46,967 nt of DNA from Pseudomonas sp. GTDB taxonomy: Bacteria > Pseudomonadota > Gammaproteobacteria > Pseudomonadales > Pseudomonadaceae. The notes under the pieces were generated by a model. It saw only the letters and a program-made list of their open reading frames with translations. It was not told the origin of the DNA and made no database searches. Below, one piece after another: positions 23,209 through 42,934 of the stretch. The stretch spans positions 1-46,967 of the forward strand of contig NZ_JAUYNP010000063.1 in NCBI RefSeq assembly GCF_030696055.1. The letters are read 5' to 3'. Position 1 is the stretch's first letter; each line of letters begins with the position of its first letter. Position numbers and translations under genes: made by a program.

Positions 23209-24150
23209 ATGGCCGGCGCTAGCCTGTTAACCCTGCTCGATGACATCGCCACCGTACTCGACGACGTGGCGGTGATGACCAAAGTCGCGGCGAAGAAGAC
23301 CGCCGGTGTACTGGGCGACGATCTGGCGCTGAATGCCCAGCAGGTCAGCGGCATACGCGCCGAACGCGAGCTGCCGGTGGTGTTTGCGGTGGCCCTGGGC
23401 TCGTTGAAGAACAAACTGATTCTGGTGCCGGCCGCCCTGCTGATCAGCGCCCTCGCGCCTTGGGCGATCATCCCACTGCTGATGTTCGGCGGCGCCTTCC
23501 TCTGTTACGAGGGTTTCGAGAAACTCGCGCACAAGTTTCTCCACAGCAAAGCCGAAGATCAGGCGCAGCACGCAGAACTGCTGCACGCCATCGCCGACCC
23601 GCAGGTGGATATGCTGGCCTTCGAGAAGGACAAGATCCGCGGCGCGATCCGCACCGACTTTATCCTCTCTGCGGAAATCATCGCCATCACCCTGGGCACA
23701 GTGGCGGCCGCCAGCTTCACCCAGCAGGTGGTGGTGCTGTCCGGCATCGCCCTGGTGATGACCCTAGGCGTCTACGGCCTGGTGGCCGGCATAGTCAAAC
23801 TGGATGACGCCGGCCTGTATCTGAACCAGCGCAGCGGCGCGGGCCTGTTCGGCCGTCTGCAACGGGCCCTGGGCCGCGGTCTGCTGCTGACCGCCCCGCA
23901 CCTGATGAAAGGTCTGTCGATTCTCGGCACCGCGGCGATGTTTATGGTCGGTGGCGGTATCCTCACCCATGGCGTGCATGCCGCCCAGGAGTGGATTGAG
24001 CAACTGGCGCAGAGCGTCGCGGCCAATAGCGCCCTGCTGGCCGCCTTGCTACCGACCCTGGCCAATGCCCTGGTGGGCATAGCCGCCGGGGCCGTGGCCC
24101 TGGCCCTGGTCAGCCTGGCCACGCGCGTCTGGAAAGCCGTCAAAGGCTAA
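23209..24150 (+). CDS. DUF808 (YedI-like) inner membrane protein
   Basis: 313 aa [46 protein letters not shown], the DUF808 start. Confidence 0.92.
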
Positions 24151-24380
24151 GCCAAAGACTCAAGCGCCACCTGCAGAATCATGGCTGCCGCCGCGTATCA
24201 CCTCGCGCAGCGGCGACCCGCGGCAAAATCACAGTCCAGGCCTGGTTATGCAACTCAAGTAGCACCTAGGTATAAAAGCCAGACCCATCCGCCACCAGCC
24301 CGTCACCCCGAGTCACCGCCCGCCTACGCAGAGCCGCGCGCATCCGTTACCATCGCCGCACCCTTGCGAAGAGATGCGGC

Positions 24381-24557
24381 ATGTATATCTACCGATTGGT
24401 TCTGATCCTGGTGGTGGGGATCTACCTGTTCTCCCCGGCCATCATGGACTGGTGGATCGACCCCAATGGCGCCTGGTACCGGCCCTACCTGCTGTGGCTG
24501 ATCCTTATAGTCGTGACCTTTATCCTTCAGAGCCAACGCGATGCCGATGAACTCTAA
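24381..24557 (+). CDS. cbrX: Small membrane protein CbrX-like, 58 aa
   Basis: MYIYRLVLILVVGIYLFSPAIMDWWIDPNGAWYRPYLLWLILIVVTFILQSQRDADEL; lies directly upstream of cbrA; too short for the supplied ORF track in this frame. Confidence 0.8.
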   Translation: MYIYRLVLILVVGIYLFSPAIMDWWIDPNGAWYRPYLLWLILIVVTFILQSQRDADEL

Positions 24558-24630
24558 GCCGCAGCAGCGCAACCCCGTGACCGCTCTTTATCTTTATTCG
24601 CAGAGCCAGCGCGATGCCGACAAACTCTGA
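24541..24630 (+). CDS. Mini-ORF 1 of the tandem junction repeat, 29 aa
   Basis: MPMNSKPQQRNPVTALYLYSQSQRDADKL*; overlaps cbrX by 17 nt and mini-ORF 2 by 17 nt. Confidence 0.5.
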   Translation: MPMNSKPQQRNPVTALYLYSQSQRDADKL

Positions 24631-24703
24631 TCAGCACCGGCGCACCCCCGTGACCGCCCTCTATCTTTATTCGCAGAGCCAACGTGATGCTGACGAGCTT
24701 TAG
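24614..24703 (+). CDS. Mini-ORF 2 of the tandem junction repeat, 29 aa
   Basis: MPTNSDQHRRTPVTALYLYSQSQRDADEL*; overlaps mini-ORF 1 and the cbrA start by 17 nt each. Confidence 0.5.
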   Translation: MPTNSDQHRRTPVTALYLYSQSQRDADEL

Positions 24704-27641
24704 CCTGAGCCAGCTGATCCTGATCAGCGCCGCCTACCTGCTGGTGCTGTTCGGCGTGGCCTGGATCAGCGAACACGGCTTGATCCCGCGCTGGGTCATC
24801 CGCCACCCGCTGACCTACACCCTGTCGCTGGGCGTATATGCCAGCGCCTGGGCCTACTACGGCACAGTGGGCCTGGCCTACCAATACGGCTACGGCTTTC
24901 TCGCCAGTTACTTGGGGGTATCCGGGGCCTTTCTGCTGGCGCCGGTGCTGCTCTACCCGATTCTGCGCATCACCCGCACCTACCAGCTGTCGTCCCTGGC
25001 CGATCTGTTCGCCTTCCGCTTTCGCAGCACCTGGGCCGGCGCGCTGAGCACGGTGTTTATGCTGATCGGCGTGCTGCCGCTGCTGGCCCTGCAGATCCAG
25101 GCGGTGGCCGACTCCATCGGCATCCTCACCCGCGAGCCGGTGCAGGAACGGGTGGCCATGGCCTATTGCGGCCTGATCATCCTCTTCACCATCCTGTTCG
25201 GCGCCCGCCATATCGCCACCCGGGAGAAACACGAGGGCCTGGTGTTCGCCATCGCCTTCGAGTCGATCGTCAAGCTGGTGGCCATCAGCATCATCGGCCT
25301 CTATGCGCTGTATGGCGTATTCGATGGCCCGCAGGACCTGCAGCACTGGCTGGTGCAGAACCAGGACTCCCTGACCAGCCTGCACACCCCGCTGCAGGAA
25401 GGCCCCTGGCGCACCTTGCTGCTGGTGTTCTTCGCCTCGGCCATCGTCATGCCGCACATGTACCACATGACCTTTACCGAGAACCTCAACCCGCGCGCCA
25501 TGGTCAGCGCCAGCTGGGGTCTGCCGCTGTTCCTGCTGCTGATGAGCCTGGCGGTGCCGCTGATTCTCTGGGCCGGGCTCAAGCTGGGTGCCACCACCAA
25601 CCCGGAATACTTCACCCTCGGCGTCGGCATCGCGGTAAACAGCCAGACCCTGGCGCTGATCGCCTACGTCGGCGGCCTGTCGGCCTCCAGCGGGCTGATC
25701 ATAGTCAGCACCCTGGCGCTGTCGGGCATGGTGCTCAACCACGTGGTGCTGCCGCTGTACCAGCCGCCCGCCGAAGGCAATATCTACCGCTGGCTGAAGT
25801 GGACCCGGCGCGCGCTGATTTTGATGATCATCATGGCCGGCTATGGCTTCTACCTGCTGCTGGGGGCCGAACAGGACCTGGCCAACCTCGGCATAGTCGC
25901 CTTCGTCGCCACCCTGCAGTTCCTCCCCGGCGTACTCTCGGTGCTGTACTGGCCAACCGCCAACCGCAAAGGCTTTATCGCCGGCCTGCTGGCCGGTATC
26001 GGCGTCTGGGTGCTGAGCATGCTGTTGCCGATGATCGGCAACTTGCAGGGTTTCTACCTGCCCTGGTTCAACGTCATCTATGTGCTGGATGACAGCAGCT
26101 GGCACCTGGCTGCCATAGGTTCGCTGGCGGCCAACGTGCTGGTGTTCACCCTGGTCTCACTGTTCACCGAAGCCAGCGATGAAGAAAAAAGCGCCGCCGA
26201 AGCCTGCGCTGTAGATAACGTGCGCCGCCCGCAACGGCGTGAGCTGCTGGCGGCCTCGCCCCAGGAATTCGCCACCCAACTGGCCAAGCCCCTGGGCGCA
26301 CGGACCGCCCAGCATGAAATCGAGCAGGCCCTGCGCGACCTGCACCTGCCCTTCGATGAACGCCGCCCCTATGCCCTGCGCCGCCTGCGCGACCGCATCG
26401 AGGCCAACCTCTCCGGCCTGATGGGCCCCAGCGTGGCCCAGGACATAGTCGAGACCTTCCTGCCCTATAAGGCCGGCAGCGAAACCTATGTCACCGAAGA
26501 CATCCACTTTATCGAGAGCCGCCTAGAGGACTATCACTCGCGCCTCACGGGCCTGGCCGCCGAGCTCGACACCCTGCGCCGCTACCACCGCCAAACCCTG
26601 CAGGAGCTGCCCATGGGCGTCTGCTCCCTGGCCAAGGATCAGGAGATCCTGATGTGGAACAAGGCCATGGAAGAGCTCACCGAAATTCCCGCGCAGCACG
26701 TGGTCGGCTCGCGCCTGACCAGCCTCGGCGAACCCTGGCGCGGCCTGCTGCAGAATTTTATCGAGCTGCCCGACGAGCACCTGCACAAGCAACGCCTGGC
26801 CCTCGATGGCCAGACCCGCTGGCTCAACCTGCACAAGGCGGCCATCGACGAGCCCCTGGCGCCGGGCAATAGCGGCCTGGTGCTGCTGGTCGAGGACCTT
26901 ACCGAAACCCAGCTGCTGGAAGACAAGCTGGTGCACTCCGAGCGCCTGGCCAGCATTGGCCGACTGGCCGCCGGGGTGGCCCACGAGATCGGCAACCCCA
27001 TCACCGGCATCGCCTGCCTGGCGCAGAACCTGCGCGAGGAGCGCGAAGGCGACGGCGAACTGACCGAGATCAGCGAGCAGATCATCGAGCAGACCAAACG
27101 CGTCTCGCGCATCGTCCAGTCGCTGATGAGCTTCGCCCATTCCGGCAGCCATCAGAACAGCGAAGAGCCGGTGTGCCTGGCCGACGTGGCGCGTGACGCC
27201 ATCGCCCTGCTGGCGCTCAACCGGCGCAGCGTCGAGGTGCAATTCTTCAACCTGTGCGACCCCGAGCACTGGGCCTGCGGCGACTCGCAACGCCTGGCCC
27301 AGGTGCTGATCAACCTGCTGTCCAACGCCCGCGACGCCTCCCCGCCCGGGGCGGCGATCCGGGTCAAGAGCGAGGCCTTCGAGCACACCGTCGACCTGAT
27401 AGTCGAGGACGAAGGCAGCGGCATTCCCAAGGCCATCATCGATCGCCTGTTCGAACCCTTCTTCACCACCAAGGACCCGGGCAAAGGGACGGGGCTGGGC
27501 CTTGCACTGGTCTATTCGATCGTGGAAGAGCATTATGGACAGATAACAATCGACAGCCCGGCCGACCCCGAGCAACAGCGTGGCACCCGCATCCGGGTCA
27601 GCCTGCCGCGGCATGTCGAGGCGACGTCCATAGCGACTTAA
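24687..27641 (+). CDS. cbrA: Sensor histidine kinase CbrA (SLC5-like transporter domain plus PAS/HK)
   Basis: 984 aa; multi-TM SSSF-like N-terminus, LASIGRLAAGVAHEIGNPITGIACLAQNLREE H-box, GKGTGLGLALVYSIVEEHYG; followed by an NtrC-type regulator. Confidence 0.95.
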   Translation: MLTSFSLSQLILISAAYLLVLFGVAWISEHGLIPRWVIRHPLTYTLSLGVYASAWAYYGTVGLAYQYGYGFLASYLGVSGAFLLAPVLLYPILRITRTYQLSSLADLFAFRFRSTWAGALSTVFMLIGVLPLLALQIQAVADSIGILTREPVQERVAMAYCGLIILFTILFGARHIATREKHEGLVFAIAFESIVKLVAISIIGLYALYGVFDGPQDLQHWLVQNQDSLTSLHTPLQEGPWRTLLLVFFASAIVMPHMYHMTFTENLNPRAMVSASWGLPLFLLLMSLAVPLILWAGLKLGATTNPEYFTLGVGIAVNSQTLALIAYVGGLSASSGLIIVSTLALSGMVLNHVVLPLYQPPAEGNIYRWLKWTRRALILMIIMAGYGFYLLLGAEQDLANLGIVAFVATLQFLPGVLSVLYWPTANRKGFIAGLLAGIGVWVLSMLLPMIGNLQGFYLPWFNVIYVLDDSSWHLAAIGSLAANVLVFTLVSLFTEASDEEKSAAEACAVDNVRRPQRRELLAASPQEFATQLAKPLGARTAQHEIEQALRDLHLPFDERRPYALRRLRDRIEANLSGLMGPSVAQDIVETFLPYKAGSETYVTEDIHFIESRLEDYHSRLTGLAAELDTLRRYHRQTLQELPMGVCSLAKDQEILMWNKAMEELTEIPAQHVVGSRLTSLGEPWRGLLQNFIELPDEHLHKQRLALDGQTRWLNLHKAAIDEPLAPGNSGLVLLVEDLTETQLLEDKLVHSERLASIGRLAAGVAHEIGNPITGIACLAQNLREEREGDGELTEISEQIIEQTKRVSRIVQSLMSFAHSGSHQNSEEPVCLADVARDAIALLALNRRSVEVQFFNLCDPEHWACGDSQRLAQVLINLLSNARDASPPGAAIRVKSEAFEHTVDLIVEDEGSGIPKAIIDRLFEPFFTTKDPGKGTGLGLALVYSIVEEHYGQITIDSPADPEQQRGTRIRVSLPRHVEATSIAT

Positions 27642-27719: not shown

Positions 27720-29147
27720 ATGCCTCATATTTTGATCGTCGAAGACGAAACCATTATCCGCTCTGCCTTGCGTCGCCTGCTCGAACGCAACCAGTACCAG
27801 GTCAGCGAGGCCGGCTCGGTACAGGAAGCCCAGGAACGCTTCAGCATTCCCAGCTTCGACCTGATCGTCAGCGACCTGCGCCTGCCGGGCGCTCCCGGCA
27901 CCGAGCTGATCAAGCTGGCCCAGGGCGCCCCGGTGCTGATCATGACCAGCTACGCCAGCCTGCGTTCGGCGGTCGACTCGATGAAGATGGGCGCGGTGGA
28001 CTACATCGCCAAACCCTTCGACCATGACGAGATGCTGCAGACCGTGGCGCGCATCCTGCGCGATCACCAGCAGGCAAAAAACGCCCCCAGCGAACGCCCG
28101 GCCAGCGGCCGCAACGCCGCGGAAAAGGTCGTCGACAACAGCAACGGCGAGATCGGCATCATCGGCTCCTGCGCGGCCATGCAGGAGATGTACAGCAAGA
28201 TCCGCAAGGTCGCGCCGACCGACTCCAACGTACTGATCCAGGGCGAGTCCGGCACCGGTAAGGAGCTGGTGGCCCGCGCCCTGCACAACCTCTCGCGGCG
28301 CGCCAAGGCCCCGCTAATTTCGGTGAACTGCGCCGCCATCCCGGAAAGCCTGATCGAGTCGGAGCTGTTCGGCCATGAGAAAGGTGCCTTTACCGGTGCC
28401 AGCGCCGGCCGCGCCGGCCTGGTCGAAGCCGCCGACGGTGGCACGCTGTTTCTCGATGAAATCGGCGAGTTGCCACTGGAAGCCCAGGCGCGCCTGCTGC
28501 GCGTGCTACAGGAAGGCGAGATTCGCCGGGTCGGCTCGGTGCAGTCACAGAAGGTCGATGTGCGCCTGATCGCCGCGACCCACCGCGACCTCAAGAGCCT
28601 GGCGAAAGTCGGCCAGTTCCGCGAAGACCTGTATTACCGCCTGCACGTGATCGCCCTCAAGCTGCCCGCCCTGCGCGAGCGCGGCGCCGACGTGATAGAG
28701 ATCGCCCGCGCCTTTCTTATCCGCCAATGCAACCGCCAGGGCCGCAATGACCTGAGCTTCGCCGCGGATGCCGAGCAGGCGATCCGCCACTACCCCTGGC
28801 CGGGTAACGTGCGCGAACTGGAAAACGCCATAGAGCGCGCGGTGATTCTCTGCGAAGGCAACAGCATCTCGGCCGAACTGCTGGGCATAGATATCGAACT
28901 GGACGACCTGGAAGACGACTTCACCGGCCTGGCCGTCCAAGACGGCGGTTTGGGGCACGAGCCCAGCGAACCGACCGAGGACCTGTCCCTGGAAGACTAC
29001 TTCCAGCACTTCGTCCTCGAGCATCAGGACCATATGACCGAAACCGAACTGGCGCGCAAACTCGGCATCAGCCGCAAATGCCTGTGGGAACGCCGCCAGC
29101 GCCTGGGCATCCCGCGGCGCAAATCCTCGGGCGCCACCGCAGGTTAA
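27720..29147 (+). CDS. cbrB: NtrC-family sigma-54-dependent response regulator CbrB
   Basis: 475 aa; receiver [51 protein letters not shown]-terminal HTH. Confidence 0.95.
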
Positions 29148-41440: not shown

Positions 41441-42934
41441 ATGGTGCACTACAGCGATTGGCAACGGCGGGCGGCCGAGCAAGGCTTTATCACCCAGGCA
41501 CTGATAGACGGCCAGCTGCGCCCGGCCCAGAGCGGCGCGACCTTCGCCTCGATCAACCCGGCCACCACCCAGCTGCTGGCCGAAGTCGCCGCCTGCGACG
41601 CGGCGGATGTCGATACCGCCGTGCGCAGCGCCCGCAGCGCCTTCGACCAGGGTCCCTGGGCGCGCATGGCGCCGCGCGAGCGCAAGCAGGTATTGCTGCG
41701 CCTGGCCGAGCTGATCCTGGCCAATCGCGAGGAACTGGCCCTGCTCGACTCGCTGAATATGGGCAAGCCGGTGATGGATGCCTACAACCACGACGTTCCC
41801 GGCGCCGCCCAGGTCTTCGCCTGGTACGCCGAAGCCCTGGACAAGCTCTACGATCAGGTCGCCCCCACCGCCAGCGACGCCCTGGCCACCATCCGCCGCG
41901 AACCCCTGGGGGTGATAGGCGCCGTGGTGCCGTGGAACTTCCCCCTGGACCTGGCCGCCTGGAAACTGGCCCCGGCCCTGGCTGCCGGCAACTCGGTGGT
42001 GCTCAAGCCCGCCGAGCAGTCGCCCTTCTCCGCCCTGCGCCTGGCTCAGCTGGCCCTGGAGGCCGGCTTGCCGAAAGGGGTGCTGAATGTGGTGCCGGGC
42101 CTGGGCGAAAGCGCCGGCAAGGCCCTGGGCCTGCATAGGGATGTGGACTGCCTGGCCTTTACCGGCTCCACCGAGGTGGGCAAGTACTTTATGGCCTACG
42201 CGGCCCAGTCCAACCTCAAGCAGGTGTGGCTGGAGTGCGGCGGCAAGAGCGCCAATCTGGTGTTCGCCGACTGCCAGGACCTGGACCTGGCCGCGGAGAA
42301 GGCCGCCTTCGCCATCTTCTTCAACCAGGGCGAAGTCTGCTCGGCCAACTCGCGTCTGCTGGTGGAGCGCTCGATCCACGATGAGTTCGTCGAACGCCTG
42401 CTGGTCAAGGCCCGCGCCTGGCAACCGGGTGATCCACTGAACCCGGCCAGCCGCATGGGCGCCATAGTCGAGGCGCGCCAGGCCGAACGCATCATGGGCT
42501 TTATCGACCAGGCGCAGAACCAGGGCGCCACCCTGGCCTGCGGCGGCCAGCGCCTGCGCATCAACGGCTCGGACAACTTTATTCAGCCGACCATCTTCAC
42601 CGGCGTACGCCCGGACATGCAGCTGGCCCGCGAGGAAGTGTTCGGCCCGGTGCTGGCGGTGCTGCCCTTCGACAGCGAGGAAGAGGCCATAGCCCTGGCC
42701 AACGACAGCCCGTATGGCCTGGCCGCCTCGCTGTGGAGCGACGACCTCAACCGCGCTCACCGCGTGGCCAGGCGCCTGCGCGTCGGCACAGTGTCGGTGA
42801 ACACGGTGGACGCCCTGGATGTCTGCGTGCCCTTCGGCGGCTGCAAGCAGTCGGGCTTCGGCCGCGATCTGTCGCTGCAGGCCTTCGACAAATACAGCCA
42901 CCTGAAGACCACCTGGTTCCAGCTGCGCCCCTAA
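41441..42934 (+). CDS. Aldehyde dehydrogenase (PuuC/KauB-like)
   Basis: MVHYSDWQRRAAEQGFITQALIDGQLRPAQSGATF...GAVVPWNFPLDLAAWKLAPALAAGNSVVLKPAEQSP; FFNQGEVCSANSRL active site. Confidence 0.9.
   Translation: MVHYSDWQRRAAEQGFITQALIDGQLRPAQSGATFASINPATTQLLAEVAACDAADVDTAVRSARSAFDQGPWARMAPRERKQVLLRLAELILANREELALLDSLNMGKPVMDAYNHDVPGAAQVFAWYAEALDKLYDQVAPTASDALATIRREPLGVIGAVVPWNFPLDLAAWKLAPALAAGNSVVLKPAEQSPFSALRLAQLALEAGLPKGVLNVVPGLGESAGKALGLHRDVDCLAFTGSTEVGKYFMAYAAQSNLKQVWLECGGKSANLVFADCQDLDLAAEKAAFAIFFNQGEVCSANSRLLVERSIHDEFVERLLVKARAWQPGDPLNPASRMGAIVEARQAERIMGFIDQAQNQGATLACGGQRLRINGSDNFIQPTIFTGVRPDMQLAREEVFGPVLAVLPFDSEEEAIALANDSPYGLAASLWSDDLNRAHRVARRLRVGTVSVNTVDALDVCVPFGGCKQSGFGRDLSLQAFDKYSHLKTTWFQLRP

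Follow-up and report, generated by a model that had tools for sequence, protein, structure and literature searches.

The overlapping junction between cbrX and cbrA has been duplicated in tandem in part of the genus Pseudomonas and, judging from the sequences, was probably kept functional as a termination-reinitiation relay, in which ribosomes finishing cbrX would be led through one or more mini-ORFs to the cbrA start. The example that we analysed lies in a stretch of 46,967 nt from Pseudomonas sp. (contig NZ_JAUYNP010000063.1), referred to here as the window, where cbrX, cbrA, cbrB, the mini-ORFs and the tandem repeat between cbrX and cbrA all lie on the forward strand. The upstream partner, cbrX (24381-24557), encodes 58 aa with the C-terminus QSQRDADEL and stands immediately 5' of cbrA (24687-27641), an SLC5 transporter domain-containing sensor kinase gene without a Shine-Dalgarno (SD) site. 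The response regulator gene cbrB is located at 27720-29147, and its translation and the gene order match the published cbrX-cbrA-cbrB-crcZ cluster (PMC6591292). Between the cbrX stop codon and the cbrA ATG there is an insertion of 129 nt (24558-24686), missing from species with a plain junction, which falls within a 73-bp tandem repeat (24528-24694). Mini-ORF 1 (MPMNSKPQQRNPVTALYLYSQSQRDADKL, 24541-24630, 29 aa) overlaps cbrX by 17 nt, and mini-ORF 2 (MPTNSDQHRRTPVTALYLYSQSQRDADEL, 24614-24703, 29 aa) overlaps both mini-ORF 1 and cbrA by the same length, producing three 17-nt overlaps at 24541-24557, 24614-24630 and 24687-24703. The ATG of the first overlap is retained in gapped species and is no longer the cbrA start. 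The coordinates, frames, peptides and overlaps of the original prediction were exact on recheck. It had also counted three copies of the stop/start module; the module is indeed repeated, but only two full 73-bp units are present (24528-24600 and 24601-24673) and the third copy is partial (24674-24694).

TRF identified this repeat as by far the top-scoring tandem repeat of the window (period 73, 2.3 copies, 85% matches, no indels, score 243). Units 1 and 2 have diverged (61/73 positions identical), which makes it unlikely that the assembly simply duplicated one copy, and the unit occurs at a single locus, with one match in the whole genome. A second 58-aa ORF (GAGATGCGGCATG) was observed in another frame at 24374-24550, starting 7 nt 5' of cbrX and ending just within the cbrX end. 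Elsewhere in the window, two short imperfect tandem repeats of 24 and 27 bp lie near each other at 41861-41993. No Hfq/Crc-type AANAANAA site was found at 24151-24420.

For P. putida, it is already published that cbrX and cbrA are coupled, that their overlap measures 17 nt and that the SD is absent; the inserted array is what is new. In that study (PMC6591292), the two genes were on a single transcript and no SD could be recognised before cbrA. Expression of a cbrA'-'lacZ fusion was nearly abolished when cbrX translation was prevented and was restored by a frame-shifted CbrX of equal length, indicating that the act of translation matters and the peptide does not; cbrX translation must also run up to cbrA. 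This experimental proof of coupling concerns the plain P. putida junction only. The relay reading, which we favour, extends it to the inserted array. Tandem duplication of the junction would separate two translationally coupled genes, and the duplicated overlap would supply its own start and stop codons, so that a ribosome ending cbrX could restart at the ATG within the cbrX 3' end. It would then translate the mini-ORF, stop beside the next start, restart and repeat these steps up to the SD-less cbrA start, the mini-peptides being by-products. The unbroken chain would be under selection because CbrA would be poorly translated without it. In published work, coupling is efficient at about -4 to +3 nt and, in one cited case, had disappeared at +89 nt (PMC12548453); since coupling declines with distance, a bare gap of 129 nt should uncouple the genes. 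One point against the relay is that 17-nt overlaps are less favourable for coupling than those of -4 or -1 nt. From the architecture and the P. putida experiments, we infer that the mini-ORFs are translated and pass ribosomes on. In a literature search that covered few subscription journals, no report of a repeat, array or relay at cbrX-cbrA was found in the accessible texts.

The original prediction had called for a comparison of the junction across Pseudomonas. We compared 399 genomes of the genus, together with named records and other families of the order Pseudomonadales, assigning junction classes by pattern match and inspection. A match to the first 200 residues of CbrA was present in 398 of the 399 genomes. 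The junction was plain in about 357 of them, showed an 11-nt overlap in five more (L180, L182, L183, L184 and, by its sequence, L192) and was unreadable in three. In 33 genomes (the P. anguilliseptica group and others), 45-352 nt separated cbrA from the cbrX stop, with varied unit lengths and frames; this count is possibly low by a few because G184 and G223 fit the plain pattern yet are gapped. The duplicated junction was inserted one to five times, depending on the species. With the named records included, 37 distinct gapped junctions were analysed, the nearest named records being P. anguilliseptica, P. borbori, P. taeanensis, P. xionganensis and relatives. One genome carried a cbrX-cbrA fusion (L181 and L234, G286), in which one A fewer in an A-run (CAAAAGATG) places both genes in one frame; the fusion could be real or an assembly error. 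CbrX had 58 aa in all readable unfused junctions, distant families alone having a 57/59-aa form. Because these families also show the 11- or 17-nt overlap (L198-L215), the plain overlap was taken as ancestral, which supports the proposal that an ancestral cbrX-cbrA junction was duplicated. As a separate observation, CbrX homologues overlapping a CbrA-like gene occurred in many families of Pseudomonadales outside Pseudomonadaceae (L198-L215; CbrX match in 41 of 57 genomes), in contrast to a review that calls the Cbr system unique to Pseudomonadaceae.

Gapped junctions were distributed over several clades of the cbrX-cbrA tree. Nested within a gapped clade, Pseudomonas sp. 5P_3.1_Bac2 (L094) showed a plain 17-nt overlap, probably a reversal through unit deletion. 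Sister species differed greatly in gap length (352 nt in L029 vs 126 nt in L027; 345 nt in L012 vs 95 nt in L013), indicating that unit number changes fast.

We then asked how the gaps could be read from the cbrX end to the cbrA start if, at each stop, a restart was allowed at any ATG lying between -20 and +10 nt of it. An unbroken path was present in 36 of the 37 gapped junctions with ATG only and in all 37 when GTG was allowed (L027 needs one GTG), each stop lying within coupling distance of the next start. With tighter limits (+3 for restarts and -3 to +18 for the last stop), 36 of 37 still had a path. The expectation of a continuous, retained translation path is supported for every gapped species. 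The solutions were of three types: a single ORF whose end lay at +1 (TGATG), +7, +10, +11 or +17 of cbrA; two to four chained ORFs; or 72-bp units read through as one ORF of 68-102 aa. None of the single-ORF solutions was in the cbrA frame. The relay described originally as a chain of 73-bp, 3n+1 units fits the window, but elsewhere single ORFs or 72-bp read-through units can serve instead. Units in the +17 frame encode mini-peptides that repeat the CbrX end, SQSQRDADxL, while many species carry a mini-ORF in another frame, ending in FAEPT* or FAEPTRC*, and mini-ORF lengths ranged from 17 to 102 aa across gapped species. Given that unit lengths, frames and peptides all vary, what is conserved appears to be the act of translation, not a peptide.

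The arrays might instead be a neutral leftover of slippage duplication, in which short, GC-rich and recent units would by themselves leave the frames open and basal CbrA would suffice whatever the gap. We consider this unlikely, although several points favour it. In P. putida, mutations that strongly reduced CbrA left crcZ activation unchanged (PMC6591292), and a cbrAB operon lacking CbrX brought back growth on histidine. Moreover, a 3n+1 tandem unit makes a relay automatic at birth. The 129-nt gap of the window alone had an open path in 43% of shuffles, which is not improbable by chance, so the case rests on the species comparison. The success of shuffles ranged from 0.1 to 0.9 per junction. 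With GC-rich gaps and, in cbrA, stops at about +7 and +17 in the two remaining frames, chance is likely to produce many of the single cases. Taken together, however, the 36-37 intact paths exceeded expectation: dinucleotide shuffles predicted 22 of 37, length-matched real DNA 24.2 (at most 31 in 1000 trials) and real DNA with the length free by ±1 19.2 (at most 28). Among the 22 single-unit gaps, the relay frame contained no stops in 383 codons vs 26 in 781 codons of the other two frames (Fisher p = 5e-5, relatedness ignored). When neutral decay was simulated on the cbrX-cbrA tree for this subset, the probability of finding 22/22 intact was 0.0007-0.07, varying with the root sequence and the substitution and indel rates and borderline (up to 0.07) for some roots. 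The median identity among gaps was only 57%, leaving ample time for decay. The significance of the path is cumulative and partly shared by descent and is, on this count alone, good but not overwhelming.

The start codon within cbrX also argues against a neutral leftover. All 37 gapped junctions had an ATG at position -17 or -11 relative to the cbrX end, even though it is not the cbrA start there. The Asp codon that creates the -17 ATG was GAT in 36 of the 37 gapped cbrX genes, whereas the other Asp codons of these genes, leaving out that of the -11 ATG, were GAC in 70 of 73. On the tree, the -17 Asp codon changed once, compared with 3-11 changes at 14 of 15 other T-ending two-fold sites of cbrX and cbrA, with the caveat that two other cbrX Asp sites, both C-ending, also change rarely (1-2 changes each). 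The exception among the 15 sites, likewise with one change, was a cbrA TTT within the TTTAG stop of the relay.

Alternatively, gapped cbrA might use its own start uncoupled from cbrX, or be transcribed from a promoter newly arisen within the repeat, as described for the senX3-regX3 MIRU region. The intergenic repeats of senX3-regX3 do show promoter activity (PMC4213456), and C-GAGCCAACG, at -13 to -4 before cbrA, varies less among gapped species than the remainder of the gap does, though it is not CbrX-coding in all frames; it is perhaps part of the initiation region. Against this, and as originally noted, no SD is present before cbrA or mini-ORF 1, and gapped species had gained none before cbrA: as a sequence proxy, the mean anti-SD duplex energy was -2.2 kcal/mol in gapped vs -2.3 kcal/mol in plain species, random 60%-GC sequence being stronger (-4.05). 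We found no burying of the start region in RNA structure, its accessibility being unchanged (0.41 unpaired in gapped vs 0.42 in plain species), and no sigma-70-like promoter at 24150-24800. In P. putida, RT-PCR revealed no significant internal promoter (PMC6591292). We consider this alternative very unlikely. Least plausible of all, and barely credible, is that the mini-peptides themselves act, e.g. by mimicking the CbrX C-terminus as decoys or by regulating CbrA. In its favour are the SQSQRDADxL repeats and a cryo-EM structure in a 2026 preprint (PMC13022988), where CbrX forms a membrane hairpin that binds CbrA. However, the peptides differ in frame and length as described above and lack the CbrX transmembrane helices, and the CbrX sequence is itself dispensable for coupling (PMC6591292).

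Returning to the relay, the unit itself points to the junction as its source. The cbrX origin of its 3' half is recognisable (mean z 3.2), while the half expected from cbrA is unrecognisable (mean z 0.3) and too decayed to assign. In plain species (e.g. L119, L018 and L030), the cbrX 3' end (LILI) and the cbrA 5' end (LILI) share (G)CTGATCCTGATC, a direct repeat of 12-13 nt and a likely site of slippage. It is the longest word common to both genes in plain species, and its copies are fixed 70 nt apart, a spacing that is 3n+1 by necessity because either copy follows the reading frame of the gene that holds it. Recombination or slippage at (G)CTGATCCTGATC would give birth to a relay-competent unit in one step, an attractive but unproved origin, because the cbrX half of the unit is recognisable and the cbrA half is not. 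The original proposal that CbrA or carbon-catabolite control is tuned by the number of units is speculation that nothing in our results supports, and crcZ activation in P. putida tolerated low CbrA. We tentatively suggest that coupling could be relayed through successive SD-less mini-ORFs over hundreds of nucleotides; because each step would lose some ribosomes, unit number might possibly attenuate a global carbon regulator in a heritable and rapidly evolving manner. Differences in CbrA level between Pseudomonas species may likewise stem from the array, and gene callers will miss or misread its mini-ORFs. The 33 genomes constitute a natural experiment in which DNA was placed between coupled genes and the ribosome path was kept each time with differing lengths and frames, which makes ribosome passage along a chain of SD-less mini-ORFs directly testable.

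As for known systems, P. putida cbrX-cbrA shares the genes, the 17-nt overlap, the lack of an SD before cbrA and the requirement for upstream translation, but has one direct overlap without insertion or mini-ORFs (PMC6591292). The closest known analogue is the mycobacterial MIRUs in senX3-regX3 (Supply et al. 1997, via PMC12548453 and PMC4213456), which are tandem units of ~77 bp, variable in number, within a two-component operon, carrying an ORF coupled to the downstream gene (PMC12548453). The cbrX-cbrA array has the same architecture, a short tandem unit with putatively coupled ORFs between genes of a two-component operon. MIRUs, however, are described there as dispersed, apparently mobile, inserted at start codons and coupled with -4 nt spacing, whereas the cbrX-cbrA unit is present once in the genome, takes its 3' half from cbrX and ends in a last overlap with cbrA of 0-17 nt. 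A MIRU-like dispersed element was rejected on the single genomic match. Being neither dispersed nor at -4 spacing, the unit is not a MIRU, though it may work alike, and the array can be viewed as a non-mobile counterpart of MIRUs. Short uORFs and minigenes (the axe-txe minigene, PMC8708949; the uORF concept, PMC12548453) are similar in that a short ORF translated in cis promotes the downstream gene and peptide identity is unimportant. They are, however, single leader ORFs or two-codon minigenes, while the cbrX-cbrA array comprises up to four SD-less overlapping ORFs behind a structural gene.
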